A stretch of DNA of 64,000 bases from Micromonospora vinacea (GTDB lineage: Bacteria > Actinomycetota > Actinomycetes > Mycobacteriales > Micromonosporaceae): contig NZ_JADOTY010000001.1 in assembly GCF_015751785.1 (NCBI RefSeq), positions 4,650,001 to 4,714,000 on the forward strand, read 5' to 3'. A program made the translations under genes and the position numbers. Below are positions 5,869-37,744 of this stretch, piece by piece. The stretch's first letter is position 1, and every line of letters begins with the position of its first letter. The notes under the pieces are model-generated. The model was not told the origin of the DNA, searched no databases, and saw only the letters and a list, made by a program, of their open reading frames with translations.

Positions 5869-5970
5869 CGCGGCGGTCGTGCGCCCCTGTTGGGCGTAAA
5901 TGCCCCGGAGAGGCGCGTACCGCCCGTTCAGGTCGTACCGGCACTGCTTCCACGCGCATCACGACGAGAT

Positions 5971-5984
5971 AGAACGGTCGGTAT
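5971..5984. promoter_or_regulatory. Degenerate TetR-type operator (site O1)
   Basis: AGAACGGTCGGTAT, an imperfect copy of the palindrome at 6023-6036, located at the upstream edge of the -35 box of the EthD-operon promoter. Only the first half-site is intact. Confidence 0.4.
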
Positions 5985-6012
5985 TGACGGCAGGGGTTTC
6001 CGGCAGTACGGT
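5984..6012 (+). promoter_or_regulatory. Probable promoter of the EthD operon
   Basis: TTGACG (5984-5989), 17-base spacer, TACGGT (6007-6012). The start of transcription would fall near 6019, so the operator at 6021-6036 would block initiation, a classic repressor arrangement. Confidence 0.5.
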
Positions 6013-6020
6013 TCTCAGGG

Positions 6021-6036
6021 ACAGAACGTTCGTTCT
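6021..6036. promoter_or_regulatory. TetR-type operator (site O2)
   Basis: ACAGAACGTTCGTTCT with inverted arms AGAACG / CGTTCT around a 2-base spacer. It matches 15 of 16 bases with the site in front of the tetR-like gene at 9178-9193, which makes that regulator the obvious ligand-controlled repressor of this operon. Confidence 0.65.
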
Positions 6037-6081
6037 ACCCGGTGTCAGCCGGGTGTGCGGCTGTGCCTGAAGGAGACCGCC

Positions 6082-6381
6082 ATGCCTACCAAGATCACCC
6101 TCGTCATCGGCAACCCCGCCGACCCCGACGAGTTCGAGAAGCTCTACGCCGACGTACGCCGGGCCGCCGAGACGTTCCCGAAGCTTCAGCGGGTCGAGTC
6201 GGCCAAGGTGTGGCCGAAGGAGGACGGCACGCCCACTCCCGCGTACCGGACGCTCGACCTGTACTTCGCCAGCTACGAGGACGCCTCCGCCGCAGTCGCG
6301 ACGCCCGCTGCCGGTGCCGTCTTCGGTGGACTCCAGGGTGCTCAGGTGGAGATCACGGGGCTGTTCTCAGACATCGAGTAG
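6082..6381 (+). CDS. EthD-like small protein
   Basis: A 99-residue dimeric alpha+beta-barrel type protein of the EthD family. Visible features are the N-terminal strand TKITLVIGNPADPDEFEKLY, the middle segment with a Tyr-Arg-Thr-Leu strand (YRTLDLYFASYED) and the Ala-rich helix SAAVATPAAGAV, in the order usual for EthD proteins. Members are small oxygenase- or stress-associated proteins found next to degradation genes; no defined reaction. The ATG follows AAGGAGA. It is the first gene of a three-gene operon under two TetR-type operators. Confidence 0.75.
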   Translation: MPTKITLVIGNPADPDEFEKLYADVRRAAETFPKLQRVESAKVWPKEDGTPTPAYRTLDLYFASYEDASAAVATPAAGAVFGGLQGAQVEITGLFSDIE

Positions 6382-6451
6382 CACGCCGTCCCGTCCCGGC
6401 GGTAGCCCGCACCCCCGCTGGGCGTCCCTTCACCCCTGAACCACCGAGAGG

Positions 6452-7015
6452 ATGACCATGACCACCGTTGCCGTTCCCGGCATCTCGACGACGGCCGCTG
6501 CTCTGCGGCGGCTGTACTTCGGTCGCTTCGCCTTCGCAATCGTCTGGGCTGCCGTGACGCTCCCGCTCGCCAAGCACCTCAACCCCCTCACCGCCGCGCT
6601 GCTCGTGATCTACCCGCTGTTCGACGTGGCCGCCGCCATCGTCGATGTCCGCGCGTCGCGGGCCACCGGATCGCCCACCCTGCTGTACGTGAACGTCGCG
6701 ATCAGCCTGCTCGCCGCGGTGGGCCTGGGCATCGCCGGCGCGTCCGGCATCCCGGCGGTCCTGCGCGTCTGGGGCGCCTGGGCGGTCGTGGCCGGGCTGG
6801 TTCAGCTGATCGTGGGCGTCACCCGCCGCAGGATGGGCGGCCAGTGGCCGATGATCATCAGCGGCGGCATCTCCGTCGTCGCCGGTGGGTCGTTCTTCGC
6901 GGCCGCCTCCGCTGACAACCCGGCGCTGACCAACGCCATCGGCTACGCCATCCCCGGCGCCATCTTCTTCCTCATCGCGGCCATCCGCCTCGGCCGCGCC
7001 GCGAAGGAGAACTGA
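6452..7015 (+). CDS. Multi-pass membrane protein (DUF308/HdeD-like)
   Basis: A 187-residue membrane protein with about six hydrophobic segments in pairs, resembling DUF308/HdeD-type proteins; no catalytic motif. Two in-frame ATGs occur at the start: the second, at 6458, has the better spacing from GAGAGG and would give 185 residues. It lies between the EthD-like gene and the FAD enzyme, which begins one base after its stop, so the three are probably one transcript. Role unknown; possibly an accessory of the redox enzyme. Confidence 0.6.
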   Translation: MTMTTVAVPGISTTAAALRRLYFGRFAFAIVWAAVTLPLAKHLNPLTAALLVIYPLFDVAAAIVDVRASRATGSPTLLYVNVAISLLAAVGLGIAGASGIPAVLRVWGAWAVVAGLVQLIVGVTRRRMGGQWPMIISGGISVVAGGSFFAAASADNPALTNAIGYAIPGAIFFLIAAIRLGRAAKEN

Positions 7016-7016
7016 C

Positions 7017-8456
7017 GTGCAGAACGCCACGTACGACGTCATTGTCATCGGCGCGGGGCCGGTGGGGGAGAACGTCGCCGACCGCGTCGTGCGGGGCGGC
7101 CTGACCGCCGCGATCGTCGAGCGGGAACTGGTGGGGGGTGAGTGCTCCTACTGGGCCTGCATGCCGACCAAGGCGTTGCTGCGCAGCCAGACGGCGCTCC
7201 GGGCGGCACGCCAACTGCCCGGTGCGCGCGAGGCGGTGACCGGCGAGCTGGACGCGGCGGCCGTGCTGCGCCGCCGGGACTCCTTCGCCTCGCACTGGAA
7301 GGACGACGGGCAGGTGTCCTGGCTGGACTCGACCGGGATCGCGCTGTACCGGGGTCAGGGGCGGATCGGCTCCGACCGGATTGTCGAGGTGGCCGGCGCG
7401 GACGGCACCACCACCTCGCTCACCGCCCGACACGCTGTCGTCGTCGCCACCGGAAGTAGCGCCCTGGTGCCGGACATCGCCGGTCTGCGCGAGGCGGCAC
7501 CGTGGACCAGCCGTGAAGCAGCCGCCGCGAGCGAGGTTCCCGGCCGGCTCGCCATCATCGGTGGTGGCGTGGTGGCCTCGGAGATGGCGACCGCGTACAC
7601 CGGCCTCGGATCGGCGGTGACGGTGCTCGCGCGGGACGGAGTGCTCACTCTGGCGGAGCCGTTCGTCGGCGAGCGGGTCACGCAGTCCCTGCGGGAAGCT
7701 GGCGTGTCGGTTCGTCTCGGTGTCGAGGCCACGTCGGTGAGCCGCGACGGTGACGGCACTGTGCACATCACGCTCACCGACGGCGAGCAGGTCGAGGCCG
7801 ACGAAATCCTCGTCGCGATCGGCCGTACGCCGAACACGCACGACGTCGGCCTCGACCGGATCGGCCTGAAGCCGGGTGCCTGGCTCACCGTCGACGACAC
7901 CCTGCGGGTGGTCGACGGTGCCGGCGCGTTGATCGGCGACGGATGGCTGTACGCGGCCGGGGACGTCAACCGGCGTGTGCTCCTGACCCACCAGGGCAAG
8001 TACCAGGGTCGCGCGGTGGGCGACGTGATCGTGGCACGGGCCACTGGAGAAATGACGGACGACCGCCCGTGGGGTCGGCACGTCGCCACCGCCGACGAGC
8101 GCGCCGTGCCGCAGGTCGTCTTCACCGACCCGGAGGTCGCGTCGGTGGGGCTGACCGCAGCCGCCGCCGAGGCTGCCGGACTGCGGATCCGGGTCGTCGA
8201 CTACGACCTGGCCGCGGTCGCCGGGGCCGCGCTGCACGCCGACGGCTACCAGGGGCATGCCCGGATGGTGGTGGACGAGGACCGGAGGGTGATCGTCGGC
8301 CTCACCCTCGTCGGCCCGGACGTCGCGGAGCTGATCCACGCCGCGACGATCGCCATCGTCGGTGAGGTCCCACTGGAGCGCCTGTGGCACGCCGTGCCCG
8401 CGTACCCGACAGTCAGCGAGGTCTGGCTGCGCCTGCTGGAGGCGTACGGCCGCTGA
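7017..8456 (+). CDS. FAD/NAD(P) pyridine-nucleotide-disulfide oxidoreductase
   Basis: A 479-residue flavoprotein of the dihydrolipoamide dehydrogenase / mercuric reductase group. The FAD Rossmann motif GAGPVGENVADRV is at residues 11-23. The redox disulfide is C43-SYWA-C48 (GGECSYWACMPTK). The NAD(P) motif is IIGGGVVASEMA near residue 180, and the C-terminal dimerisation domain follows. In lipoamide dehydrogenases the latter carries a catalytic His in HPTxSE; here the same place reads Y463-PTVSE, so the reaction may differ from classic lipoamide or glutathione reduction. GTG start right after the upstream stop. Co-transcribed with the EthD-like gene and probably TetR-controlled. Confidence 0.85.
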   Translation: MQNATYDVIVIGAGPVGENVADRVVRGGLTAAIVERELVGGECSYWACMPTKALLRSQTALRAARQLPGAREAVTGELDAAAVLRRRDSFASHWKDDGQVSWLDSTGIALYRGQGRIGSDRIVEVAGADGTTTSLTARHAVVVATGSSALVPDIAGLREAAPWTSREAAAASEVPGRLAIIGGGVVASEMATAYTGLGSAVTVLARDGVLTLAEPFVGERVTQSLREAGVSVRLGVEATSVSRDGDGTVHITLTDGEQVEADEILVAIGRTPNTHDVGLDRIGLKPGAWLTVDDTLRVVDGAGALIGDGWLYAAGDVNRRVLLTHQGKYQGRAVGDVIVARATGEMTDDRPWGRHVATADERAVPQVVFTDPEVASVGLTAAAAEAAGLRIRVVDYDLAAVAGAALHADGYQGHARMVVDEDRRVIVGLTLVGPDVAELIHAATIAIVGEVPLERLWHAVPAYPTVSEVWLRLLEAYGR

Positions 8457-8490
8457 CCTGAGCCGTGCGGCCGCCGGCGCCATCGCCGAT

Positions 8491-8526
8491 GAGCTGGGTC
8501 ACCCCTCACCCGGGGTGGCCCAGTTC
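8491..8526. terminator. Hairpin between convergent oxidoreductase and tetR genes
   Basis: A 15-bp stem (8491-8505 with 8512-8526) including two G-U wobbles, core CACCCC/GGGGTG, and a 6-base loop. It lies midway between the two stop codons and can serve both strands. Confidence 0.55.
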
Positions 8527-8553
8527 TAGTCGTGCGGGGTGGTCGCGCTGGGG

Positions 8554-9162
8554 CTAACCGGCTGACTCCGCCGACTGGCGCTCCGAGTTGATCCTGAGGA
8601 GTCCTTCGACGCCGCGCAGGAAGGTCTCGGACACCAACGTGGCGTCGGAAAGGCAGCCGGCCGCCATGGCGCCGTCCCGGAGCATGACGAAGTGGCGCGC
8701 TGCGGGATCCGCCGTTTCTTCGTGGACCCGTGCCATGAGCATGGTGATGGTGTCCAGGAACCATTGCCGGTGGGCCATGAGTTCCTGGTGCACGGGATGG
8801 TTCGTGTCGGGGTATTCCGCCGCGGCGTTCAGGAACGCGCACCCACGGAACCCGGGGGACTGGATGTTCTGAGCGATGGAACCGGCGATGGCCAGGAGCG
8901 GATCGACAGGCGATCGGTTGGCGGCGAGGGCCTCGTTGACCATGCCGCGCTCCAGCTGATGCACCTCCCGCAGGTAGGCCAGGATGAGGTCGTCCTTACT
9001 GGGGAAGTGCCGGTAGAAAGTAGCCCTGGTCACCTTCGCCTCCGCGATGATCCGGTCGACGCCGACGGAGTGGATGCCCTCCGCGTAGAAGATCCTGGTC
9101 GCCGTGCGAAGAAGCTTGGAACGTGCCTCAGAGGGTCGGGCAGTGGGTTCGTCGCTCGCCAT
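8554..9162 (-). CDS. TetR/AcrR family repressor
   Basis: A 202-residue regulator. The N-terminal helix-turn-helix is clear at residues about 13-60 (ARSKLLRTATRIFYAEGIHS ... VTRATFYRHFPSKDDLI), followed by a helical ligand-binding domain with a C-terminal segment common in TetR proteins of the YxaF/LmrA kind. The ATG is 17 bases downstream of an AGAACGTTCGGTCT palindrome, so it probably represses itself. The same palindrome sits in front of the EthD operon that converges on it. The inducer is unknown; the neighbourhood (flavin reductase, EthD, hydrolase) suggests an electrophile or a xenobiotic. Confidence 0.85.
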   Translation of the reverse strand: MASDEPTARPSEARSKLLRTATRIFYAEGIHSVGVDRIIAEAKVTRATFYRHFPSKDDLILAYLREVHQLERGMVNEALAANRSPVDPLLAIAGSIAQNIQSPGFRGCAFLNAAAEYPDTNHPVHQELMAHRQWFLDTITMLMARVHEETADPAARHFVMLRDGAMAAGCLSDATLVSETFLRGVEGLLRINSERQSAESAG

Positions 9163-9177
9163 CCACCCATCTTAGCG

Positions 9178-9193
9178 ACAGAACGTTCGGTCT
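9178..9193. promoter_or_regulatory. TetR-type operator in tetR promoter (site O3)
   Basis: ACAGAACGTTCGGTCT, one base different from the site at 6021-6036. It lies 15 bases from the tetR start codon, next to a TAAGAT -10-like box on the minus strand, and about 200 bases upstream of the divergent hydrolase gene, which it might also control. Confidence 0.6.
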
Positions 9194-9395
9194 GATCTGT
9201 ACCTGCGGGAGGCACTCCGTTCTTCGATCTCGCTGACAGCGGCCCGACCCGTGCCGGATTCTAAATGCGGCAACCCATCGCAACGGATCGCCGGCTGATG
9301 CGTGCTGCCGGGGAAACGCGCCGTTCACCGTCCTCGTCGGTCCGGTCTCATTACCGCAGGCAGTGGGTGGCGAAGACCTCTCGAAAGGACTCCAG

Positions 9396-10175
9396 ATGAG
9401 CGCTGCTTCTGACACGTCTACGCAGGACGCTGGGATGCCGACAGTTGTGCTGATCCACGGGGCATTCGCCGGCTCGTCGAGTTGGAACGGGGTGATCGCT
9501 GACCTCAAACGTCGGGGTTACCCGGTCATTGCCGTCGCCAACCCGCTGCGCGGTGTGCAAAAGGACGCCGCTTACGTGCGGGCCCTCCTGGACAGCCTGC
9601 CCGGACCGGTCGTGATGGCCGCCCACTCCTACGGCGGGCTGGTCATGACCGAGGCCGCGGATGGTGCCTCCAACGTCAAGGCCCTGGTGTACGTCGCCAG
9701 CGTGAGCCCGGACGTAGGCGAAAGCGTGATCGGGTTGCTCGGTAAGTACCCCGGCAGTCAGCTCGCCACCAGCATCAATATGGTGCCGATCCCCTCCGGC
9801 GACGGCGGCACGACCATGGACCAGTACATCCTGCAGGACAAGTTCCCCAAGGTGTTCGCCGCCGACGTCGATCGCGGCACCGCCGAGATCATGGCGGCGA
9901 CGCAGCGGCCCGCCTCGGCGAGCGCCCAGGAGGAGGGCGTGACGAAGGCCGCCTGGAAGACGATCCCCTCCTGGACCCTGATCACCACCCAGGACCTGGG
10001 GATTCCACCGGACCTGCAGCGCTTTCTGGCCGACAGGGCGGGGTCCACGGCAGTTGAGATCGCCGCCTCCCACGCTGTGGCAGTCTCGCAACCCGGCCCG
10101 GTCGCAGACCTCATCGACACCGCCGCCCGCGCCACCGCACGCTCGATGCAGATGTCCAAGAGCCGCCAGGGTTAA
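9396..10175 (+). CDS. Alpha/beta hydrolase
   Basis: A 259-residue cytoplasmic alpha/beta-hydrolase of the EstC/salicylate-esterase-like group. The oxyanion motif VVLIHGAFAGSSSW opens the fold, the nucleophile is S78 in AAHSYGG, and the likely catalytic His is H226 in ASHAVAVSQP. The ATG follows AAAGGA with good spacing. It is divergent from the TetR gene, whose operator lies in the shared 230-base gap. The substrate is probably a small ester or lactone; the exact reaction cannot be read from sequence. Confidence 0.82.
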   Translation: MSAASDTSTQDAGMPTVVLIHGAFAGSSSWNGVIADLKRRGYPVIAVANPLRGVQKDAAYVRALLDSLPGPVVMAAHSYGGLVMTEAADGASNVKALVYVASVSPDVGESVIGLLGKYPGSQLATSINMVPIPSGDGGTTMDQYILQDKFPKVFAADVDRGTAEIMAATQRPASASAQEEGVTKAAWKTIPSWTLITTQDLGIPPDLQRFLADRAGSTAVEIAASHAVAVSQPGPVADLIDTAARATARSMQMSKSRQG

Positions 10176-10272
10176 CCAGGCTTGCCGACGCGGCGTCTGG
10201 TTCATTCCACCACCGACGGTGCCGAACAGAAGGGTGCCCAAGCCGAGCGTCCGAAGCTGCCATGATGCTCCG

Positions 10273-10470
10273 GTGAGTCAGACAGGGGAATGGGACCGCG
10301 TGGTCGAGGGCGTTCGTGTTCAATTCATGGCCGGCCAGCACGACGAGCCGGCGACCGCCGTCATCATTCCAAGGCCAGGTGTCGAGGCGATGGTGGCGGC
10401 CCTGGGAGAGATGATCCGATCTGGTGACCTCGACGTGATGCTCAGCATGGTGGAGGACGGCGCGATCTAG
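10273..10470 (+). CDS. Small hypothetical protein
   Basis: A 65-residue acidic protein from a GTG start (begins with Ser-Gln-Thr-Gly-Glu-Trp-Asp), with no signal peptide or membrane segment and no recognised family. Codon use in this stretch is ordinary for the region. No clear ribosome-binding site is seen, so both start and reality are only moderately supported. It stands between the hydrolase and the convergent DUF1152 gene. Confidence 0.4.
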   Translation: MSQTGEWDRVVEGVRVQFMAGQHDEPATAVIIPRPGVEAMVAALGEMIRSGDLDVMLSMVEDGAI

Positions 10471-10638
10471 TTGAGTGACCAACCAGGTGACACCGAGCGG
10501 CTCTGCTGTTGACGTGCCGTCGTCAAAGCGGTGTCTGGGCCACAGGTTTCTGGGCGAGGAGATATCCCTGGGCAGGGCTGTCCGTTCGATCGGCTGGGAC
10601 GCCGCCCCAGAACACGGTGGTGAAGCCCGTCCGGGCGA

Positions 10639-11634
10639 TCAGTGCGGGAAGGCGCGGGGGATGCGGGCGCCGACAAGCTCGTCGCGGAACGCCTGGATGC
10701 GTGTGATGACCTGCCGTCTGCCGATGGTGTTCTCGATGCGGTCGAGGTACAGGCATCGGGCCGCGAGTTTGTCGAGATCGACGGTGAAGTAGACCGCCAT
10801 CAGCGGGTTGACGAACAGGTCGCCGCCGCCGGTGCGCCGGCTGAATCGGACGTCCCCGAACGCGCCGCTGGTGGCGGCGGCGATCTGTCCCTGAACGATG
10901 CTCGGCCGCTGCGGGGTGGCGTTCTGGGCGTCAGCGACGGCAGCGCGGTAGAGCTCCGCCTCCCGGCTGGAACCGGGGATGGACAGGGCGCCGAGGTAGC
11001 CGCCGTCGCGGTCGAGCGCGGCGAGGTTCTCCAGCACCTCGACGTGGTTGACGCCGTCGTAGGCGTCGATGCCAAAGCCGAGACTGGTCACCAGCTTGAC
11101 CGGTACGTCCAGCGCGGCCACCGCGGCCAGACTGGTCATGTCCTCCACCGGAGTGCCGAGATTGCTTTCGTCGCCCCGCAGCAGTACGTCGGTGCCGCCG
11201 TCGACCAGTACCACCGCGTCGATGTCGAGGCGTTCCACCAGGTGCCGGTACGCCGTCCGTAGCGGCTGGACGCCGAGCGGCGGGAAGGCGTACACCGTCG
11301 ACGGCAGTTGCTGAGCCGCCAGCCATCGGGCGAGCGTTCGCTCCGGGAAGTACCAGTCGGGGCTGGTGGTATCCGGCTGAACCGCCGCGACGTGCTCCGC
11401 CACCCACGCGTCTCGGTCGATCAGCTCAAGTTCGGAGAAGGAGAGGCTGGCCAGGTGCACCTGCGCCCCGGCACGCCACAACGCGAAGGCCAAGGGCAGG
11501 CCCGCGTACACGTCGAAACCCCCGCCTGCTCCGGCGATGAGGATGCTCCGCGCCGGGGCCAACGCGGCGAACAGTGGCGGAACGGCCAACGAGAACACAC
11601 CGGAGTCGGCCGGCGGCGCCGCAGGGGTCATCAC
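10639..11634 (-). CDS. DUF1152 family protein
   Basis: A 331-residue soluble protein of the DUF1152 family. Characteristic features are the glycine-rich nucleotide-like loop LIAGAGGGFDVYAGLPLAFAL (quoted in part, about residues 31-50), LASLSFSELE, the VVLVDGGTDVLLRGDE segment with conserved acidic residues, and GFGIDAYDGVNHVEVLENLA. The fold suggests a Rossmann-like enzyme, but no activity is established. It starts with two consecutive ATGs. No operon partner; the flanking genes are unrelated. Confidence 0.82.
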   Translation of the reverse strand: MMTPAAPPADSGVFSLAVPPLFAALAPARSILIAGAGGGFDVYAGLPLAFALWRAGAQVHLASLSFSELELIDRDAWVAEHVAAVQPDTTSPDWYFPERTLARWLAAQQLPSTVYAFPPLGVQPLRTAYRHLVERLDIDAVVLVDGGTDVLLRGDESNLGTPVEDMTSLAAVAALDVPVKLVTSLGFGIDAYDGVNHVEVLENLAALDRDGGYLGALSIPGSSREAELYRAAVADAQNATPQRPSIVQGQIAAATSGAFGDVRFSRRTGGGDLFVNPLMAVYFTVDLDKLAARCLYLDRIENTIGRRQVITRIQAFRDELVGARIPRAFPH

Positions 11635-11915
11635 CGCTCAATGATCACTGACGCTCGGCGGGCACCTGCGACGCCGCTGGCTGGCGGGAACGGGGGAGGG
11701 GCGAGCAGGGTGAGATCATCGTGGAAGCCGTGCTTCAGTGCGGCGGTGCGTCCTCACCCTGACGACCCCGATGATCTCGACGACGCCGAGACGCGTGCGA
11801 TCGGTGTATCGGGAAAGCGCCCCTCGTGCCGAAACGATGCGGCCCGCGAGAGGCGCGATAATCCCAGCACGGAGGGCGCTTTTGGCGCTATGCCCACATC
11901 ACCGAAGGCGCGTGA

Positions 11916-12212
11916 CTAGTTGATCCGGTGCGCGCTGTAGATGTACACCACGACCGGATCCGCTGCCCTTCGGTACCACAGGAGGCCGGCTGGGCTGGTG
12001 CAGCGCCCGTCCATCGTGTAGGTGTATTCGGGGTAGGCGTATCCGGCCACCTTGGACGAACTGCTGTAGCCGTAGCGCCATGGGGCCGACGCGAACCGCA
12101 TTTCGATGTAATCGGTGTCCGTGCAGCCCGCAGCAAGCGCGGGAGTCGGCACAGCCAGTGTGCTCAGCGGAAGCACGATGGCTGTTGCCAGCGCTAGCAG
12201 TGATCTCCTCAA
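11916..12212 (-). CDS. Small secreted protein
   Basis: A 98-residue exported protein. A 27-residue Sec signal peptide (two Arg, hydrophobic core, Ala-Leu-Ala-Ala cleavage region) is followed by about 70 residues rich in Tyr, with three Cys and a DGRCTSPAGLLWYRRA segment. The start codon is TTG, with GAGG nine bases upstream. No family recognised. Similar small Tyr/Cys-rich secreted proteins in actinomycetes are uncharacterised. About 280 bases of apparently empty DNA separate it from the DUF1152 gene. Confidence 0.6.
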   Translation of the reverse strand: MRRSLLALATAIVLPLSTLAVPTPALAAGCTDTDYIEMRFASAPWRYGYSSSSKVAGYAYPEYTYTMDGRCTSPAGLLWYRRAADPVVVYIYSAHRIN

Positions 12213-12528
12213 GATCTCGCCTCACTTTCTGCATGGCTGCCGTTCGAATGAGCCGGCAGCGGTGACGCATTGCCGAACATGTCCGACGTCCGGACCCGTG
12301 TGGGCGAACTCGTTTCCCAGCTTCGATTCGCCGGCGTCACGGGTGATTGGGGTCAGCGTATGGGCGACGAATTGGGGGCAGCTACCGCCGATTGCTGTCC
12401 CGAACACAAGCGCGCCTGTCCGGGCTGCTCACCGGCTTGTTCGGACTTGTTCGAACGCTCGTCAGGACGTGGGCGACCGTTCCTGGTTCAGCAGAACAGC
12501 GCGCATCTCGAACAGCGTCCAACAGACG
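12213..12528. other. Intergenic stretch without a convincing gene
   Basis: This gap lies upstream of the small secreted protein and downstream of the HelD gene. Open frames are present but show poor codon bias, and none has a ribosome-binding site with a recognisable protein. It should hold the promoter of the secreted protein; I see no strong hairpin or palindrome. Confidence 0.4.
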
Positions 12529-28854: not shown

Positions 28855-29079
28855 ATGTGTCAGGCGACGTCGGAGGCGCGGCGGCAGACCTTCCTGGCCG
28901 CCGCGCTGATGGTGGTCGGGGCGGTGGTGTTCATCGCCGCCACCGCTGGCTGGCGCGCCGCCACGTCGGGCTACGACGGCAGCGGCGCGCCAGCCAGCCG
29001 CGCTCAGTACGGGTATCCGGGGATGTTGAGCCGCACGCTGTACAGCCCGGAGTCGCCCCACGGACCCGACGTGATGTAG
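28855..29079 (+). CDS. Possible small single-helix membrane protein (uncertain)
   Basis: A 74-residue frame with strong third-position GC over its first 50 codons, beginning MCQATSEARRQTFLAAALMV and continuing into a clear membrane helix. The last 25 codons lie antisense to the 3' end of the lactonase gene, and a 17-bp inverted repeat falls within the frame. It is divergent from the HAD-like gene with only 24 bases between starts. It may be a real small membrane protein or the remnant of a longer gene; no family recognised. Confidence 0.3.
   Translation: MCQATSEARRQTFLAAALMVVGAVVFIAATAGWRAATSGYDGSGAPASRAQYGYPGMLSRTLYSPESPHGPDVM
28945..28998 (-). terminator. Strong hairpin after the SMP-30 lactonase gene
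   Basis: Perfect 17-bp inverted repeat GCTGGCTGGCGCGCCGC (28945-28961) and its complement (28982-28998), loop 20 bases, starting 5 bases past the stop codon of the minus-strand gene. It is the longest perfect stem I found in the window. Confidence 0.6.
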
Positions 29080-30050
29080 AGGGTCTGCCGGTCCGGGCCG
29101 CCGAACGCCACGTTCGTGGTGCCGGAGTTGCCGGGCCGGATCGTGCCGAGCTGGGTGCCCGTGGGGGAGTAGACGTGGACCAGGGAGTCCCCGCCCGAGG
29201 TCCAGTACACGTTGCCGGCGCAGTCGATCGTGCCGCCGTCCGGACCGCCGATGTAGTTCACGAAGACGCTGCGGGCGCCGATGCTGCCGTCGGGCTGGAC
29301 CACGTACTTGTAGATCTTGTTCTCGGAGTAGGCGCCCACGTACAGCGCGGACCCGTCCGGGGAGAGCGAGATGCCGTTGGGTTGGCGCAACCGGTCGTCG
29401 ACAAGCGACACCTGACCGTTGGAGACGCGGAAGACGCTGGTACGCCCGCTCATCTGGTCCGGGCGGTTGCCGCGCTGGAAGTTGGGGTCGGTGAAGTAGA
29501 CGACGCCGTCGGAGCGGACCGCGACATCGTTCGGCGAATTGAACGCCCGGCCCTGGTAGTTGGCCGCGACGGTGCTGCGGGCCCGGTCGCTCAGGCGGTA
29601 CGCGGACACGCTCCGCTGGTCGTGGGTGGCCGCGACGAGCTGCTGGGCGTCGGCGCTGAGCGCCAGGCCGTTGCTGCCGGCGTTGGCGATGAACGTGTCG
29701 AAGGTCGCCGGCGGGGTGAACCGGCGGATCGTCGACGGCTGGACGTTGTACGGCCCGGTGCCGCCGGCCATGTCGGACATCAGCAGGTAGCCACCGTCGG
29801 CGACCCAGACCGGCCCTTCGAGGAACGTGAATCCGCCCCGGATCCGTGGGGCCGTCAGGGTGCTGGCCGGCAGCGGTGGGCCGTAACTGGCCCCCGTCGG
29901 GCAGACCCCGGGCGGTGGGCCGGGCGGACCGGCGAGCGCGGCGTGAGCGCTGACCTGCTCGGCGTTGGCGGCAGCACCGGCGGGCAGTGTGGTGGCGCTG
30001 ACCGCGAGGCACAGGCCGGCCAGTGCGGCAATGGTTGGACGCCAGGTCAT
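29004..30050 (-). CDS. Secreted SMP-30/gluconolactonase-like protein
   Basis: A 348-residue exported six-bladed beta-propeller. The signal peptide ends near Ala-Gly-Ala-Ala-Ala at about residue 27. SMP-30/LRE signatures are FTFLEGPVWVADGGYLLMSD, GRAFNSPNDVAVRSDGVVYF, RLRQPNGISLSPDGSALYVG and PDGGTIDCAGNVYWTSGG; the Glu, Asn and Asp in these blocks are the usual metal ligands. Expected activity is hydrolysis of sugar lactones outside the cell, which would suit the secreted sugar dehydrogenase at 2064. Ends at a strong hairpin. Confidence 0.82.
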   Translation of the reverse strand: MTWRPTIAALAGLCLAVSATTLPAGAAANAEQVSAHAALAGPPGPPPGVCPTGASYGPPLPASTLTAPRIRGGFTFLEGPVWVADGGYLLMSDMAGGTGPYNVQPSTIRRFTPPATFDTFIANAGSNGLALSADAQQLVAATHDQRSVSAYRLSDRARSTVAANYQGRAFNSPNDVAVRSDGVVYFTDPNFQRGNRPDQMSGRTSVFRVSNGQVSLVDDRLRQPNGISLSPDGSALYVGAYSENKIYKYVVQPDGSIGARSVFVNYIGGPDGGTIDCAGNVYWTSGGDSLVHVYSPTGTQLGTIRPGNSGTTNVAFGGPDRQTLYITSGPWGDSGLYSVRLNIPGYPY

Positions 30051-30333
30051 CGATTACTCCAATCGGCGTCGAGGGTTGCGATGGCCGGCGTGCGAGGTCG
30101 GTGGCTGGCACGGCGTGAGGGCGGGCCGTCGATGTGGATATTCGGGAGCCTAGGTCATTGACCAGCGACCCGCAGCAATCTTTCGCCGTCGTCTCCGAAA
30201 CGGATCGGAGCCCACACACAAAGACGCAGGTCAATGCCAAAGAGCGCCGGAGAATCCTTCCGGTACGACCACAGTGGACAAATCAGCGGTGGCCCGGGTC
30301 GTCGGGCCGGACGCGGGGAAATAGGCTCGGGTC

Positions 30334-31512
30334 ATGACTGGCCTGCTCAGTGGTGCCCCAACCGCCGTCAACCCCCTCCGCCAGCTCACGATCGACCAGC
30401 TCCGGCAACGGACGAGCCTCAAGTGGCGGGAGTACCCCGACGACGTGCTGCCCCTCTGGGTGGCGGAGATGGACGTGCCCCTGGCCGAGCCGGTCGCCCG
30501 GGCGATCACCGACGCCGTCGCGCGCGGTGACACCGGCTACACCGCCGGCACGGCGTACCCGCAGGCGTTGGCCGAGTTCGCCGCGCGGCGGTGGGGTTGG
30601 GACGGGCTGGCCGTGGAGCGCACCGCGCTGGTGCCCGACGTCATGCACGGTGTCGTCGAGGCGCTGCGGCTGGTCACCGAGCCAGGGGACGCGGTGATCG
30701 TCAACTGCCCGGTCTACCCGCCGTTCTACGAGTCCGCGGCGCACGCCGACCGCCGGATCGTGGAGGCGCCGCTCGGCGAGGCCCTGCGGATCGACCTCGA
30801 CGCGCTCGAGGACGCGTTCCGGCGGGCCCGCACCGGTGGACGGCCGGCGGCGTACCTGCTCTGCAGCCCGCACAACCCGACCGGCGTCGTGCACAGCGCG
30901 GCCGAGCTGACCGCCGTCGCCGGTCTGGCCCAGCGGCACGGGGTGCGGGTGGTCGCCGACGAGATCCACGCGCCGGTGGTGGCTGAGGGAGCGCGGTTCG
31001 TGCCGTACCTCTCGGTGCCCGGCGCGGAGAACGGCCTGTCGCTGATGTCGGCCTCCAAGGGGTGGAATCTGTCCGGTCTGCGCGGTGGGCTCCTCGTCGC
31101 CGGTCCGGCCGCGGCCGAAGACCTCGCCCGCGTCCCGTTCGGGGTCAGCGTCAGCACCAGCCACCTCGGCGTGATCGCCCACACCGCGGCCTTCCGCGAC
31201 GGCGGCGAGTGGCTCGACACCCTGTTGACCGGCCTGGACGACAACCGCCGACTGCTGTCCGCGCTGCTCGCCGAGCACCTGCCGTCCGTCCGGTACCAAC
31301 CTGGTCAGGCCACCTACCTGGCCTGGCTCGACTGCCGCGCCCTGGGCCTCGGCGACGACCCGGCCACCGTGTTTCTCGATCGTGGCCGGGTGGCGCTCAA
31401 CCCTGGATCGGCCTTCGGGACCGGCGGTGGGGGGCACGTGAGACTGAACCTGGCCACCGCACCGGAGCTCATCACCGAAGCGGTACGCCGGATGACCAGC
31501 GCCGTCGGCTGA
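30334..31512 (+). CDS. MalY/PatB-type PLP aminotransferase (C-S lyase)
   Basis: A 392-residue cytoplasmic fold-type I PLP enzyme of the MalY/PatB branch, usually cystathionine beta-lyase. Branch markers are [56 protein letters not shown] and the PLP lysine in [12 protein letters not shown]. Position 30334 ATG follows a short gap from the divergent lactonase gene. It is followed after 39 bases by the SWIM gene, without evidence of a functional link. Methionine or sulfur metabolism is the probable role. Confidence 0.85.
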
Positions 31513-31551
31513 GACCGGCCAGGTGTCGGTCGGTGGCTCTACGGTGTGCCC

Positions 31552-32877
31552 GTGAACGCCGTCCAGACGTACCGATATCTCCAGCCGTCCGCTCTGCGTA
31601 CCGCTGGCCTCGACCTTCAGACCAGCGGCGGCCCGGCGGCCAATCCGCGCTTCTTCTCCGGGTTTCTCACCACCCCGGCAGCGGCGGCGGGCGGGCTGCT
31701 CGCCGTGGCCGAGGTGGCCCGTACCCGTTACCACCAGCCGGTCAGCCCGGCGAGCCTCGACCCGGTGGTGACGGGCAGCCGGGAGCGGCTGCGATTCGAG
31801 TCCTTCTCCGGCTGTTGCGGGGTGTACGCCCGGATGGACGTGCTCCCGGCCGGCTTCGACGGTGAGATCGCCGGGCACGGCACGACAAACGTGGACGTCA
31901 ACCCGCCGCTGCGGGAGGCCCTCGCCCGGGTGGGTGGCATCGAGCCGTTGCACCTGGCCGTCGGCCCGGACGACCTCACCGTCTCCACCATGGAGGGTGC
32001 GGTGGTGGAGCGGAAGGTCCCGCTGCCGGGGCGTTGGATGCGCGGTTTCGCCGAGGTGCACGTGCTCACCGCCGGCTTCGAGCCGCGCGCCGAGATCCCC
32101 GCCGCCGAGGCCACGGCGTTCCTGCGCCGGTTGCCCGGGAGCAGCGACCGTTCAGTGCTGTGGGCGGTGCCGGCCGGGCGTACCCTCCGCCTGACCTCAC
32201 GCCCGACGCCGGGGGCGGTCTGTCTGGCCGGCGCGGGGCGGCTCGCGGCGCTACGCGGGCTGCTCCGGCACGCCCGCACCCTGCGGGTGTACGGGCCAGC
32301 GGTGCGCGCCGGCTCACCGGCGGTGCCGAGCACGTGGGAACTGGACACCGGGTCCTTGCGGCTGTCGCTGACCCTCTCGCCCGAGCCGTACCGGGGATTC
32401 TCCGGCGAGGGGGCCGCGTTGCTCGCGCTCGCCAGCGACGAGGTGATCGACGACGCGGAGCTGGTCGGTGCCCTGCTCTCCTGGGATCCGACGATCGACG
32501 TCGCCGCGCTGGCCGAGGCGACCGGCCTGTCCGACGACCGGGTCCGCGCGGCCCTGGCCCAGCTCGGCACCGCCGGCCGGGTCGGCTACGACGTCGCCGA
32601 CGCCGGGTACTTCCACCGGGTCATGCCGCACGACGCCGGCCGAGCCGAGCGGGACAATCCCCGGCTGGTCGGCGCGCGCACGCTGGTCGAGCGGGGCGCG
32701 GTCCGCCGCGACGGCGATCATGCCACGGTACGCAGCGGCGACGACGACTACCGCGTCCGCCGACTTCCCGACGGGAACCTCACCTGCACCTGCCGGTGGT
32801 GGGGGAAGTACCGGGGACAGCGCGGCCCGTGCAAGCACGCCCTCGCGGTGTCCATGCTGGCGGAGGTGGCGGTGTGA
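31552..32877 (+). CDS. SWIM zinc-finger protein
   Basis: A 441-residue soluble protein ending in a SWIM zinc finger, with C412, C414, C427 and H429 as ligands (CTCRWWG ... GPCKHALAV). The upstream 400 residues are beta-rich and contain no enzymatic motif I can name. SWIM domains bind nucleic acid or protein. The GTG at 31552 is chosen; another in-frame GTG is two codons earlier. Its stop overlaps the start of the DUF6493 gene (GTGA), a pairing I know from other actinomycetes, so the two almost certainly work together. No MoxR or vWA gene, seen beside some SWIM systems, is nearby. Confidence 0.8.
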   Translation: MNAVQTYRYLQPSALRTAGLDLQTSGGPAANPRFFSGFLTTPAAAAGGLLAVAEVARTRYHQPVSPASLDPVVTGSRERLRFESFSGCCGVYARMDVLPAGFDGEIAGHGTTNVDVNPPLREALARVGGIEPLHLAVGPDDLTVSTMEGAVVERKVPLPGRWMRGFAEVHVLTAGFEPRAEIPAAEATAFLRRLPGSSDRSVLWAVPAGRTLRLTSRPTPGAVCLAGAGRLAALRGLLRHARTLRVYGPAVRAGSPAVPSTWELDTGSLRLSLTLSPEPYRGFSGEGAALLALASDEVIDDAELVGALLSWDPTIDVAALAEATGLSDDRVRAALAQLGTAGRVGYDVADAGYFHRVMPHDAGRAERDNPRLVGARTLVERGAVRRDGDHATVRSGDDDYRVRRLPDGNLTCTCRWWGKYRGQRGPCKHALAVSMLAEVAV

Positions 32878-35423
32878 CGGACTTCTTCAGGGCACTGAGC
32901 CGCGGCGATGTGACGACCGTCGGGTCGATGCTGCACACCCTGGACGATCCGGCTCGGCGGGCGCTCGGTGACGAACTGATCGCCCATGTCCGACAACGGC
33001 GCGACCACTGGGCGTGGGGGAGTGAGGCGACCGCGCTGGCGGTCGCCGCGGTGGGCACGCTGAGCACCGCGACGAAGGCCGCCGCCCTGCTCGGCAGGCA
33101 GTCGATCATGTTGACGGATGCCGACCCCGAGCCGGTGGTTGCCGCGGCCCGACAGCGAGGAGTGCCCTGGCTGGCCGACCTGGCGTACCGGCTGGCCGAG
33201 CGGCTGCCCCGCAGCCGAGCGTGGGACGGTTGGCGCTTCGTCGCCGGGCTGTTGCTGGCGGAGAAGGTGCCGCCGCCGACCGGCGACGCGTTCGTCGTCG
33301 GCTGGGCGCAGTCGATGTGGTGGCAACGGTCGTCCGACGAGCAACGGCGGGCACCGCTGCTCGACCGGCTGCGCGCCGACCCGTTCCTGGACGTGCTGCT
33401 GCCGCGCCTGTTCGATGTCGACGGGATCGGCACCGACCTGGGGTTCGGCGGCGGCGGGCGGGCGGTGCCCGCGACGCTGGCCGCACTCGCGGCGGAGGGG
33501 CGGCTCGACCGGGCCGTGCTCCTGGACGGGGTGCTGGGTCGGCTGCTGCGCGGTGACCGGCCGGGCGCGCTGCGTCCGTTCCTCGCCCTGCACGAAGAGC
33601 TTCGACCCAGCCCGGACGAGGTGGCCGCGCGGGCGAGCGGATACCTGCGGTTGCTCGCCGACGGGCCCGGGCCGGTGGCCGGCCTCGCGCAGCGAGCGCT
33701 GCGCGACGCGGACGGGCCGGTGGAGTTCGAGTCGTTGCTGGACACCTCGCGGGTCGTGCTGGGCCGGCCGGAGAAGACGCTGGTGCGGGCACAGCTGTCC
33801 TGGCTGGACCGACTGGCCCGGCACAACCCCGATCGGGCGGCCGACATCGCCGAGGTCCTCGCCTCGGGCACCGAACACCCGGCCGCCGACCTAAGCGACC
33901 GCGCGACGGCGTTGGCCCAGCGGTACGGCCACCGGCCGGTCGCCACTGTCACCGTGAGGGTGGCCGGCGACGAGCTACCCCCGCCGGTGTCGCCCGCGCT
34001 CGCCGCACCGCCGATCACCGAGGTGGACGAGCTCGTCGAGGAGGTCTCCGGGCTGCTCACCCCACGCCGGTCCGCGTTGACAGTGGAACGGGTCCTGGAC
34101 GGGCTGGTTCGGTTGACCACCACCGACCGGGACCGGCTGTCCACCGCCCTGCTGCCGGTGCTGCGGCGGGGCCAGGCGGGTGCCTGGGACAACATGTGGT
34201 CGCAGTTCAACGTGTCGGTCCAGCTCAACGGCGTCCTGCTGGCCGCCGCCGCGCCGTCCGAGGCGACCAGCCGCCGCGACCAGTGGTCCAGCATCCTCAG
34301 CCAGTTACTGCCCCGGACGTTGCGCCCGTTCCGCCGCCGGTCGGCCGTCGACCCGCCGCTCCAGTCCGCGCTCACGCTTGTCTACTGCGCCCGGCTCGCG
34401 GAGATCGGACAGCGCCTGGACGGGCGGGACGACCCCGGCCTGCTGGCCGCCCCGACCTGCGCCACCGGTGCCCTTGACCCGACCGCGCTCTACGAACGGG
34501 TGGCCGCCCTCGGCGACCGCCCGGTGTGGCGGTGGGATCTCACCCAGGCCCTGCTGCGACTGCCCGCCGGCGTGGACGAGTCGCTGGCGAGCCGGGCCGC
34601 CGCGCTCGGCACTGCGGCCGGCGACGAGCTGGCCGGGTGGCTGCGCGGTGACGCCCTGCCGGCAACGGTCCAGCAGTTGGTGACGGTCGACCGACGCGAG
34701 CGCAGGCACACCTACGACTTCGGCTACGACGGGCTACCCGTGCGGCGCACCCTCGTCACGACTGCCCCACCCGAGGAGGTCGCGGATCCGCTCGGGCTGC
34801 TCACCGTCCGGGCACGGCCGATCGGACGAGGGCCGGGCGACTCGAGCAACCTGTGGCCGGCGCTGCTACCAGGGCACCGGGGGCTGGTCGCCGCCCACCT
34901 GCTGCCCGAGTTCGCCAGCGCGGCGCAGCAGGACGCCCAGGATGCCGCCGCGATCCTGCCGGTACTCGCCGAGTGTGCCGGCGCGGGTGGTCCGGCGCTC
35001 GACCTGGCGCTGGCCTACGGGCTGTGCGCCCGGCACGAGGTGGACCGGGTGGCCGCCCTCGACGCCCTGCTGATGCTGGCGGCCGCTGGTGACCTTGATG
35101 CTCCGGGTGTCGGCGGCCAGTTGGGCGCACTGGCGGCCGACGGCCAGGTGACGCTGACCAGGGTGGTCACACCGCTGCGCGACGCGATCGCCGCCGGTGC
35201 CCGGCTGAGCGTCTGGCGGTTGCTCGCCGCCGCGTTGCCACCGATGCTGGCGGCGCCGGCCCCGCCTCGCGGCATGCCCGACCTGCTGGCCCTGGCGGCC
35301 GAGACGGCCAGGGCCACCGGCGTGCTCATCGAGGTGCCAGGGCTGGCGGACGTGGTGGCGCGCGGCGGCACGAGTCGGTTGGTGACCGAGGCTCGCCGAC
35401 TCGCCACCGCACTGACCGCCTGA
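32874..35423 (+). CDS. DUF6493 family protein
   Basis: An 849-residue soluble, almost entirely helical protein rich in Ala, Leu and Arg, which looks like a long HEAT/ARM-like solenoid. No nuclease, ATPase or protease motif is visible. DUF6493 proteins are known as partners of SWIM zinc-finger genes; the function is unknown. GTG start inside the stop of the SWIM gene. The frame is open far upstream only because it overlaps that gene out of phase. Transcription probably ends at the hairpin 19 bases after the stop. Confidence 0.78.
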   Translation: MTDFFRALSRGDVTTVGSMLHTLDDPARRALGDELIAHVRQRRDHWAWGSEATALAVAAVGTLSTATKAAALLGRQSIMLTDADPEPVVAAARQRGVPWLADLAYRLAERLPRSRAWDGWRFVAGLLLAEKVPPPTGDAFVVGWAQSMWWQRSSDEQRRAPLLDRLRADPFLDVLLPRLFDVDGIGTDLGFGGGGRAVPATLAALAAEGRLDRAVLLDGVLGRLLRGDRPGALRPFLALHEELRPSPDEVAARASGYLRLLADGPGPVAGLAQRALRDADGPVEFESLLDTSRVVLGRPEKTLVRAQLSWLDRLARHNPDRAADIAEVLASGTEHPAADLSDRATALAQRYGHRPVATVTVRVAGDELPPPVSPALAAPPITEVDELVEEVSGLLTPRRSALTVERVLDGLVRLTTTDRDRLSTALLPVLRRGQAGAWDNMWSQFNVSVQLNGVLLAAAAPSEATSRRDQWSSILSQLLPRTLRPFRRRSAVDPPLQSALTLVYCARLAEIGQRLDGRDDPGLLAAPTCATGALDPTALYERVAALGDRPVWRWDLTQALLRLPAGVDESLASRAAALGTAAGDELAGWLRGDALPATVQQLVTVDRRERRHTYDFGYDGLPVRRTLVTTAPPEEVADPLGLLTVRARPIGRGPGDSSNLWPALLPGHRGLVAAHLLPEFASAAQQDAQDAAAILPVLAECAGAGGPALDLALAYGLCARHEVDRVAALDALLMLAAAGDLDAPGVGGQLGALAADGQVTLTRVVTPLRDAIAAGARLSVWRLLAAALPPMLAAPAPPRGMPDLLALAAETARATGVLIEVPGLADVVARGGTSRLVTEARRLATALTA

Positions 35424-35441
35424 AAGCTGCTCCGCCCGCAC

Positions 35442-35476
35442 CGCGGCCGGGCCGGGACACCACCGGCCCGGCCGCG
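35442..35476 (+). terminator. Terminator of the SWIM/DUF6493 pair
   Basis: Perfect 14-bp stem (core GCGGCCGGGCCGG) with a 7-base loop, directly after the DUF6493 stop codon and about 90 bases before the sigma-factor gene. Confidence 0.65.
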
Positions 35477-35569
35477 TCGGTCGAGTGGTCTGGCTTCCGA
35501 CCGTACTTTGACGGGGACGCAACCTGATGGTCGTCCGGTCCCGTCGAGCTTGCGGAGGAGGGAGCCTCG

Positions 35570-36085
35570 ATGGTGGATGCCGAGGGTGAGTTCGTGGAGT
35601 ACGTCTCCGCGCGACTGCCGAGCCTGCATCGGACCGCGTTCCTGATGTGCGGCGACGCCCATCTGGCCGACGACGTGGTGCAGCAGACGATTACCGCGCT
35701 CTACGTTAACTGGCGCCGGGTCAGCCGGGCCGACAACGTCGACGCGTACGTCCATCGGATGCTGGTGCACAAGCTCGTCGACGAGAAGCGGTTGAGCTGG
35801 GCGAAGGTCCGGCTGCTGGGGTCGATGCCGGAGCCGGAGCGCTCGCCGGTGACGCCACAGGACGACCTGGCCGAGCGGGACAGCCTGCTCGCCGCGCTCG
35901 CTCGACTCCCGCGCGGGCAGCGCACCGTGCTGGTCCTGCGGTTCCTGTGCGACCTGTCGTTGACCGACACGGCCGCCGCGATGGGCTGCTCCGAGGGCAA
36001 CGTGAAGTCGCAGACGGCTCGGGCGCTGGCGGCCGTCCGCCAGGTGCTCGACGTCACCGAGATGTCAGTGAGGAGTCCGAGATGA
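35570..36085 (+). CDS. SigE-family ECF RNA polymerase sigma factor
   Basis: A 171-residue ECF sigma factor of the actinobacterial SigE-family. Region 2 is DDVVQQTITALYVNWRRVSR and region 4 runs LPRGQRTVLVLRFLCDLSLT then MGCSEGNVKSQTARALAAVR. The ATG follows GGAGGAGGGA. The next gene begins inside its stop codon and encodes a membrane protein with an extracytoplasmic propeller, the expected place for its regulator. The stimulus and regulon are not deducible. Confidence 0.88.
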   Translation: MVDAEGEFVEYVSARLPSLHRTAFLMCGDAHLADDVVQQTITALYVNWRRVSRADNVDAYVHRMLVHKLVDEKRLSWAKVRLLGSMPEPERSPVTPQDDLAERDSLLAALARLPRGQRTVLVLRFLCDLSLTDTAAAMGCSEGNVKSQTARALAAVRQVLDVTEMSVRSPR

Positions 36086-37251
36086 CCACGGTGGACGATC
36101 AGCGGATGGCCGAGCTGCTGCGCTCGGTGCCGGTGCCCGAGCCCCGGGTCGACCTGGGCCGGGCGGTCCGCGACGGCCGGCGGCGCCGCAAGCGTCGCCG
36201 CGTCGGCGGGATCGCGGCACTGACGGTGCTGGCCGGGGTCGGCGTCGTCGGCGCCGTCCAGGTCGGCGGGCCCGCCGGCCCGCCAGTTCCCACCCCGCCG
36301 GCGCTCGCTGTGTCACCCGCCGCAAGCGGGTCGGCCGCCCCGCGCCCGCCGATCACCTGTCAGGCGTCGTGGTTGCCGCAGCCGGTCGGCGGTCCGGTCG
36401 CGGTGGCCAACAGGGTCGACCCCAGCGGGCGGCACATCGTCGGCGACATCGGCACCGGGCAGGAGGACGGACGGGTCGTGCTGTGGACCGACGGCCGGCC
36501 GGTCGTCCTGCCGGCGGCCGCGCGGCACGCGGCCGCGGTCAGCACCCGTGGCGATGTGGTCGGCACCGACGGCGACGGCACCGGCTGGCTGTACCGGGAC
36601 GGGAAGCTGCGTTTTCTGGCCACTCCACCCGGCTACGACGCGGTGCTCGTGCACGCCGTCAACGGTCGGGGCGACATCGTCGGCACCGCCCGCAGGTCCG
36701 ACGACTCGCACCAGGCTGTGCTGTGGTCGATGGACCAACCCCAGAAGTACCGGCTGGTCGGCCAGCGGGGGTCGTCCGCGACCGGGATCACCGAGGACGG
36801 CACGATGGTCGGCACCATGGGCGATCAGCCCTACCGGTGGACTCCGCAGGGCGTCGGGTCGGCGCTGGCGGTGCCCGACGGCTACCCGCGGGCGTCGGTC
36901 GACTCGGCTCGGGGCGAATGGGCGATCGGTATGGTTCCCGGCGGCAAGCGCAGCGGCGCCGTGCAGATGCTGCCGGTCCGGTGGAACCTCGCTACCGGGG
37001 CGGTGAACCTGTTGCCCTACCCCGGGGCGAACGGCGTTGCCGGTAACGGTGAGCTGCTGGTCAGCGACGGTGCGCCGCTGGTCGTCGCCCGGGATGGCAC
37101 CTCCCGCCGGTTGCCGGGCCACCCCGAGGTCCGGGCGACCGAGGCGGGCACGTACACGGCCGAGGGAATCAGCGACGACGGTCTGACGGTGGTCGGGGCG
37201 GTCTACGAGAAGCAGGCGTATCGGCCGCTGGTGTGGCGGTGCACGCGCTGA
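36082..37251 (+). CDS. Membrane-anchored propeller protein, probable partner of the sigma factor
   Basis: A 389-residue single-pass protein. About 45 cytoplasmic residues (start MTTVDDQRMAELLRSVPVPE) precede a basic patch and one membrane helix (about 46-64), then a Pro/Ala linker and an extracytoplasmic domain of repeated short beta-motifs ending in RGDVVGT, RGDIVGTARR, DGTMVGT and DGLTVVGAV, like HAF-type repeats. No HxxxCxxC zinc motif of classic anti-sigma factors is present. Translational overlap with the sigma gene (ATGA) makes it a likely membrane sensor or anti-sigma factor. Confidence 0.7.
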   Translation: MTTVDDQRMAELLRSVPVPEPRVDLGRAVRDGRRRRKRRRVGGIAALTVLAGVGVVGAVQVGGPAGPPVPTPPALAVSPAASGSAAPRPPITCQASWLPQPVGGPVAVANRVDPSGRHIVGDIGTGQEDGRVVLWTDGRPVVLPAAARHAAAVSTRGDVVGTDGDGTGWLYRDGKLRFLATPPGYDAVLVHAVNGRGDIVGTARRSDDSHQAVLWSMDQPQKYRLVGQRGSSATGITEDGTMVGTMGDQPYRWTPQGVGSALAVPDGYPRASVDSARGEWAIGMVPGGKRSGAVQMLPVRWNLATGAVNLLPYPGANGVAGNGELLVSDGAPLVVARDGTSRRLPGHPEVRATEAGTYTAEGISDDGLTVVGAVYEKQAYRPLVWRCTR

Positions 37252-37354
37252 CGTGGTGAGTCCACCGTGGGGGCGTGCCGTCCGGCTCGTTTCAACCGAC
37301 CGGGTCCGTGGGTACGCTCCCACCGGCTGATCACCCGATCAACGGAGACTCCTC

Positions 37355-37744
37355 GTGATTATGGCTCTGCTGCTCGACCTCGCCAACATCGTCGGTGGCT
37401 TCCTGCTCGCCGTGGCGGTGCTGCGGCTGCTGCCACGAGTCGGCGACGACCTGGGCCGCCTCGCCGGTCGGGCCGCCCCGATCGCGTGGGTGGTCGGCCT
37501 CGTGGCACTGGTGACCGGCGGCTACTACCTGATCGTCCACCTGGTGTCCGGGCCCCGGGTGTTCCACTTCGAGGTGGTGGGGGTCGGGGTGGGGCTCGCC
37601 CTGCTGTGGGGCCGACTGACCGGGCGGTCGACGCCGCGCGACGATCGGTCGGACGGCGCCACCGGGGTCCGGCTGTTGCTCGCGATCTTCGGCCTCATCG
37701 CGATCGTCGTCGGCGTCCAGGGGCTGTTCACCCCGGACGGCTGA
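37355..37744 (+). CDS. Small membrane protein
   Basis: A 129-residue protein with four hydrophobic segments (about 5-24, 40-62, 70-84 and 104-123). GTG start with GGAG eight bases upstream; an ATG two codons later is possible. No family recognised. It converges on another four-helix protein at 37760, with stop codons 16 bases apart. Confidence 0.6.
   Translation: MIMALLLDLANIVGGFLLAVAVLRLLPRVGDDLGRLAGRAAPIAWVVGLVALVTGGYYLIVHLVSGPRVFHFEVVGVGVGLALLWGRLTGRSTPRDDRSDGATGVRLLLAIFGLIAIVVGVQGLFTPDG

Follow-up and report, generated by a model that had tools for sequence, protein, structure and literature searches.

In a 64,000-nt stretch of Micromonospora vinacea DNA, below called the window (RefSeq assembly GCF_015751785.1, contig NZ_JADOTY010000001.1, positions 4,650,001 to 4,714,000 of the forward strand), two adjoining genes encode a SWIM zinc-finger protein and a large helical solenoid assigned to the DUF6493 family (Table 1). 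We show that the SWIM and DUF6493 genes are a real conserved two-gene unit, and profile comparisons identify the PADLOC family SWIM_XIII as the closest known relative found of the SWIM protein, tentatively suggesting that the two genes form a pair akin to the effectors of type XIII retrons, without the reverse transcriptase (RT). The initial annotation, made from the sequence alone, had described the two genes as translationally coupled, ending at a perfect hairpin and being the sole content of their transcription unit. The GTGA overlap and the 14-bp stem bear out the first two points, whereas a separate transcript for the pair is unproven, because an aminotransferase-like gene (assigned by eye) lies on the same strand only 39 nt upstream. 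The 77 nt 3' of the solenoid stop codon fold with a z-score of -3.66, 1 of 200 shuffles being equally good; no T run stands behind the hairpin and a consensus scan lists no terminator there. GC-rich hairpins resembling it by eye are present in a pair-bearing relative (L014) and at a pair-less site of another (L156).

Table 1. Features of the SWIM/DUF6493 locus, in window coordinates
Feature	Position	Strand	Basis or detail
SWIM gene	31552..32877	+	GTG start, 441 aa
Most conserved part of the SWIM subunit, residues ~66-290, motifs DPVxT, RxExxS, GTTNxDxN, LPxRW, RGFSGEG	31747..32421	+	weighted conservation, 66 sequences
Winged-helix-like stretch, residues 297-344	32440..32583	+	DprA_WH / HTH_PafC matches in relatives
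SWIM zinc finger, residues 409-433, CxC...CxH	32776..32850	+	Pfam
GTGA, 4-nt overlap of SWIM gene and solenoid gene	32874..32877	+	sequence
Solenoid gene, DUF6493-family alpha-solenoid subunit	32874..35423	+	GTG start, 849 aa
Perfect 14-bp hairpin, 7-nt loop GACACCA	35442..35476	+	sequence, folding

The pairing of both genes was surveyed by profile searches in 150 Micromonosporaceae genomes, the number of candidates scored per genome being limited so that all counts are approximate. SWIM loci and DUF6493 loci are each present in 62 genomes, 59 in common, and all 62 SWIM-bearing genomes also have a DUF6493 gene, three of them after inspection. The searches listed 71 SWIM loci, stumps included, with a DUF6493 match within 1 kb at 64; one entry (G094) is the other half of a gene split by a contig end, resulting in 70 loci, and inspection revealed a diverged adjacent DUF6493 gene at five further ones (G072, G027, G088, G095:C36 and G122:C40). 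After inspection, 69 of the 70 SWIM loci thus have an adjacent DUF6493 gene. At locus G024:C28 the SWIM gene is intact by its motifs and no DUF6493 gene lies in the 19 kb read, two of these standing in tandem elsewhere in that genome. The initial annotation would have given up its proposal if the two genes proved not to be conserved together or if a partner of known function always accompanied them; joint conservation is what we found, and the neighbourhood survey yielded no recurring third gene in the loci examined.

The coupling itself is conserved: the 4-nt overlap recurs in 36 of 39 homologous pairs (two of which, L010 and L017, are one and the same record), the exceptions L015, L033 and L044 having broken or truncated frames, and remoter pairs are sometimes gapped; two Streptomyces plasmids, for example, have 61 and 100 nt between the genes. 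Four loci (L107, L114, L115 and L116) show the reverse order, with the DUF6493 gene in front. Distances of the SWIM and solenoid proteins correlate with r 0.87 over 40 pairs, a value reached in 0 of 2000 permutations, which ignore shared ancestry. In the best tblastn segments of 36 pairs, identity to the window amounts to 67-97% for the SWIM protein and 37-89% for the solenoid, and the median ratio of log identities of 2.5 shows the solenoid evolving about 2.5 times faster, as expected of a recognition part. In one genome (L105, G071) a second DUF6493 copy is preceded by a mere 77-aa SWIM stump. In Diaphorobacter sp. HDW4B (L047, 8983-15316) a SWIM gene is followed by two tandem DUF6493 genes with 4-nt overlaps, and the locus adjoins an integrase gene and a VapC toxin-antitoxin pair.

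The pair is found in Streptomyces, Nonomuraea, Diaphorobacter (with two DUF6493 genes) and Asticcacaulis as well. More widely, SWIM matches are scarce: an order-wide sample of 61 genomes and a phylum-wide one of 149 each gave five genomes with a match, including that of the window. Within the genus the solenoid is present in 8 of 16 Micromonospora genomes sampled. A DUF6493 gene in Hymenobacter has no SWIM gene in the 19 kb read. Streptomyces cadmiisoli carries a lone SWIM gene which lost the GTTNxD and LPxRW motifs, with a DUF6493 gene elsewhere on the same plasmid. In three close relatives (L154, L155 and L156) the pair is missing between the aminotransferase-like gene and the sigma-factor-like gene, which flank it in the window; the flanks of the pair-bearing relative L014 are the same as in the window. 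The 234 nt between the flanks of L155 contain two matching pieces, one to the SWIM gene (window 31772-31831; score 62 against 40 for the best of 200 shuffles) and one to the L014 solenoid gene (score 63 against 38). Judged by these alignments the site holds a clear remnant of both genes, so the pair formerly stood there and both genes were lost together, by decay or deletion. In L156 the alignment takes in the leader as well as the stretch with the solenoid gene end and the hairpin, the coding match being marginal (43 against 42; with L014, 4 of 200 shuffles reach the score), and this site probably retains a remnant too. L154 shows no clear remnant (32 against 31; with L014, 46 of 200 shuffles reach the score).

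The co-occurrence of both genes in 62 of 62 SWIM-bearing genomes, and the absence of two motifs from the lone SWIM gene of S. cadmiisoli, would be explained by a stand-alone toxin-antitoxin pair kept by addiction, with the SWIM protein as toxin and the DUF6493 protein neutralising it. Retrons themselves have been described as tripartite toxin-antitoxin systems. We nevertheless judge this explanation improbable, as relatives have lost the pair at this site, the intact SWIM gene of G024 has no adjacent DUF6493 gene (though two stand elsewhere in that genome), and 849 residues are unusual for an antitoxin.

The SWIM protein matches the Pfam SWIM family above cut-off (E 5.5e-6) and aligns with the PADLOC model SWIM_XIII at E 1.8e-41, residues 67-435 covering positions 101-501 of 509. 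All 23 members of an alignment of SWIM proteins (A1; mean column identity 79%) match this model as well. We take XIII to be a retron type number, judging from the PADLOC model names, and the name type XIII retron reportedly goes back to Mestre et al. 2020. Both PADLOC papers cite Mestre et al. 2020 for the classification of retrons (PMC9252829, PMC8565338). In 66 SWIM sequences (about 32 effective) D70, P71, T74, R81, E83, S86, R94, D96, G110, T112, N113, D115, N117, P159 and W162 are at least 95% conserved. Upon addition of a Methylobacterium retron SWIM protein (21 members), D70, P71, T74, E83, S86, R94, G110, D115 and P159 are invariant.

This Methylobacterium protein is encoded on a plasmid record of Methylobacterium bullatum (L053), in which positions 5444-12376 comprise a WGR solenoid, the SWIM protein, a strongly folded 316-nt gap and a reverse transcriptase. 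The SWIM homologue shares 26.6% identity with the window protein over residues 69-441 and matches SWIM_XIII at 4.8e-213; its neighbours match WGR_XIII (1.3e-251; with a 4-nt overlap with the SWIM gene) and RT_XIII (6.6e-176). The first 90 residues of the solenoid match two annotated WGR proteins (8e-6 and 4e-4), the Pfam WGR match being below cut-off (0.045). The gap 5' of the RT gene folds much more stably than shuffles (z -6.9), as expected of an msr-msd, and Rfam names no retron RNA in this record. According to these matches the region is apparently a complete type XIII retron. As PADLOC also includes HEAT-ARM_XIII models, the type XIII set-up seemingly consists of a SWIM protein together with a helical-repeat protein. 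The window pair resembles it in the homologous SWIM protein with shared invariant residues, in the directly adjoining helical-repeat gene and in the 4-nt overlap, which is present in L053 too. The window pair differs in having no RT and showing no sign of an msr-msd, and in its DUF6493 solenoid in place of WGR or HEAT-ARM_XIII; moreover, window-type pairs mostly have the SWIM gene first, whereas in L053 the solenoid gene is first, the same order as in the four reversed DUF6493 loci.

No RT_XIII match is present in the genome of the window at E 1e-15. Among the 150 genomes 22 contain one, 13 of these belonging to the 62 with a SWIM gene (Fisher p 0.10); the RT lies on another contig in nine of the 13 and is nearest at about 200 kb in four, none being near the SWIM locus as far as contigs allow. 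As to an msr-msd next to the genes, the upstream gap measures only 39 nt and Rfam has no match in 29000-37500, but neither does it name one in L053. We do not file the pair as a type XIII retron, because the RT and a matching solenoid were looked for and not found; it may still work like the effector half of such a retron.

SWIM genes reportedly stand near MoxR/vWA genes among the yeh genes of Escherichia coli, and the initial annotation had compared the SWIM protein with the MoxR/vWA conflict systems. This comparison is not supported: the pair could be a branch of these systems minus its ATPase, which we consider very improbable, since the nearest of five AAA_3 (MoxR-type) matches in the genome is about 1.37 Mb away, leaving none within 1.3 Mb, and the closest family found is SWIM_XIII. 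The MoxR-vWA ternary conflict systems are likewise accessory genes in filamentous actinomycetes, according to the eLife 2020 survey (PMC7159879), and have a MoxR-type ATPase, none being adjacent to the window pair; a term search of the main text of that survey does not find the word SWIM (PMC7159879). New here is the link of the SWIM protein to the SWIM_XIII retron family, not to MoxR/vWA, as far as profile matches can tell. Of the initial description as an undescribed machine one half stands, DUF6493 not being mentioned in the literature searched, and the other does not, the SWIM protein having a catalogued relative. Searches on SWIM in the context of defence, retrons, WGR, MoxR, HEAT repeats or Streptomyces gave nothing on this pair among the matches listed. 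The 7.34-Mb Micromonospora genome has one solenoid match and two SWIM matches above the Pfam cut-off. The second SWIM gene (L149, 8912-13124) has the SWIM finger in common with the pair and encodes another protein, of 299 aa, with another neighbour, i.e. a helicase-like gene of 1078 aa (by eye).

Besides the zinc finger, the SWIM subunit contains a winged-helix-like stretch, recognised among 21 diverse members by DprA_WH in 8 (best 4.2e-5) and by HTH_PafC in 4 (best 0.066; E up to 5), Pfam matches of the window protein itself being below cut-off there. The AlphaFold2 model, based on an alignment with 12 close relatives, is poor (mean predicted local distance difference test score, pLDDT, 42.4), residues 371-440 being better (pLDDT 65-92). 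DnaN-type sliding-clamp repeats, noticed by eye at residues 66-168 and 178-285, were rejected on profile comparison: the first part reached 2% probability (score 21.3 against 17.5 for the best of 39 block-shuffles), the second gave no match, both together were not above shuffles and comparing one part with the other gave no match either.

The winged-helix-like and SWIM parts would also suit a regulator or repair factor acting on DNA, in which case the SWIM protein would bind the chromosome and the solenoid would scaffold host proteins, e.g. in the DNA-damage response or in development, with no anti-phage role. The very high conservation of the SWIM protein fits such a housekeeping partner, as do the ordinary-looking neighbours of the pair. 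A parallel is the WGR-domain gene dr2173 of Deinococcus, which is strongly up on depletion of DdrO, the radiation-response repressor, and not in irradiated irrE-mutant cells (PMC8533742). A core role is opposed by the patchy presence (8 of 16 sampled Micromonospora) and the loss at this site, and SWIM_XIII belongs to a retron set, which renders this alternative somewhat unlikely in our view.

Assignment of the solenoid to a family is indirect. With E values up to 1 allowed, the window protein has no match to DUF6493 (PF20103), and its matches to DUF7824 (PF25148; 0.0033) and DUF7825 (PF25149; 0.093) are below cut-off. Among 24 relatives (E up to 0.1), DUF7824 is matched in 18, DUF7825 in 9 and DUF6493 in 5 (best 2.7e-9), five distant SWIM-paired relatives scanned each match at least one of PF20103, PF25148 and PF25149 above cut-off, and several homologous neighbours are publicly annotated as DUF6493. 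Membership in the DUF6493/DUF7824/DUF7825 family thus holds by transitivity, as a sequence-based assignment via relatives, the window protein itself being below the Pfam cut-offs. In the AlphaFold2 model the solenoid is almost all helix (mean pLDDT 67.8), with residues 1-350 mostly exceeding 80 and residues 594-721 falling below 50. Foldseek with this model retrieves generic HEAT/ARM-type solenoids with a best E of 1.5e-3, none reaching 0.001, and template-modelling scores of about 0.1-0.3.

DUF6493 genes outnumber their partners. The 150 genomes contain 97 DUF6493 loci, fragments included, and five diverged genes seen on inspection only, compared to 70 SWIM loci. No SWIM match is adjacent at 33 of the 97, 25 of which span more than 1.8 kb, a line chosen by us; all 25 long orphan stretches sit in SWIM-bearing genomes, the three SWIM-less genomes with DUF6493 having fragments only (Fisher p 0.010). 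This surplus and the confinement of long orphans to SWIM genomes suggest one SWIM core being served by several DUF6493 adaptors; part of the pattern may stem from duplication of paired copies. Four genomes of a single genus (L073, L076, L077 and L079) have an orphan DUF6493 gene beside a glycyl-tRNA-synthetase-like gene (by eye).

The surroundings of the pair show no constant companion. Clustering of genes up to six places from the pair or from orphan DUF6493 genes in 60 sequences, one of which (L048) was not parsed by the gene finder, gave same-genus synteny and common promiscuous families only. PADLOC models were scanned against 128 near-neighbour proteins out of 173 eligible ones (a size limit left 138, and 10 more were omitted), 13 of the 60 sequences having been excluded as near-duplicates or the window itself. 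Among the 25 of 44 matched PADLOC families shown, names and E-values are those of the L053 genes, and one neighbour in L006 matches PDC-S41. In the window the sigma-factor-like gene (by eye) follows the solenoid gene after 146 nt; it is translationally coupled to a 389-aa gene with a membrane-anchor-like stretch (35570-37251; by eye).

Taken together, our data tentatively support a model, to which we assign a probability of about 0.45, according to which the pair is related to the type XIII retron effector pair, has no RT and acts as a solenoid-gated SWIM effector in stand-alone defence. The SWIM subunit would be the conserved effector core, binding nucleic acid via its winged helix and SWIM finger, and the DUF6493 solenoid would wrap it in a physical complex, restrain it and provide the recognition surface, thereby taking the role that the WGR/HEAT solenoid together with the RT and its multicopy single-stranded DNA (msDNA) would have in the retron. 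A trigger would meet the solenoid (a phage product or disturbed DNA being the likeliest candidates), upon which the SWIM subunit would be released or loaded onto its target, halting growth or phage propagation. Further DUF6493 copies elsewhere in the genome might be alternative sensors on the same SWIM core. The patchy presence in 62 of 150 genomes and the relative with remnants of both genes count for a defence pair. To our knowledge, no activity of type XIII retron effectors is known.

Several results weigh against this model of an RT-less retron effector. The DUF6493 solenoid matches no PADLOC model, so it is neither WGR_XIII nor HEAT-ARM_XIII, and has no profile similarity to the WGR solenoid of L053 (probability 0.15%); it may therefore be analogous rather than homologous to the retron solenoid, of which L053 is the single instance seen. 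There is no sign of a defence island, as every PADLOC model with a match hit just one of the 128 near neighbours, for which no distant-gene control was scanned. Profile scans revealed no known toxic or nuclease domain in the SWIM protein or the solenoid, tblastn of phage records gave no match to the SWIM protein, and pattern-based viral-contig scans gave none. Finally, defence effectors are not usually as strongly conserved as the SWIM protein is.

Extending the model of an RT-less effector, the pair might be a retron effector freed from the retron, one SWIM core working with interchangeable DUF6493 solenoids, each with its own trigger, and the type XIII retron would be a special case in which the RT-msDNA and a WGR solenoid took over sensing; we regard this broader view as unlikely. 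If several solenoids indeed serve one core, the pair would offer a simple case, in bacteria, of one effector with exchangeable sensors. Being common and RT-free in culturable actinomycetes, it would allow the effector to be studied without msDNA and make the separate roles of the SWIM core and the solenoid visible, and the DUF6493 family would thereby gain a testable role.

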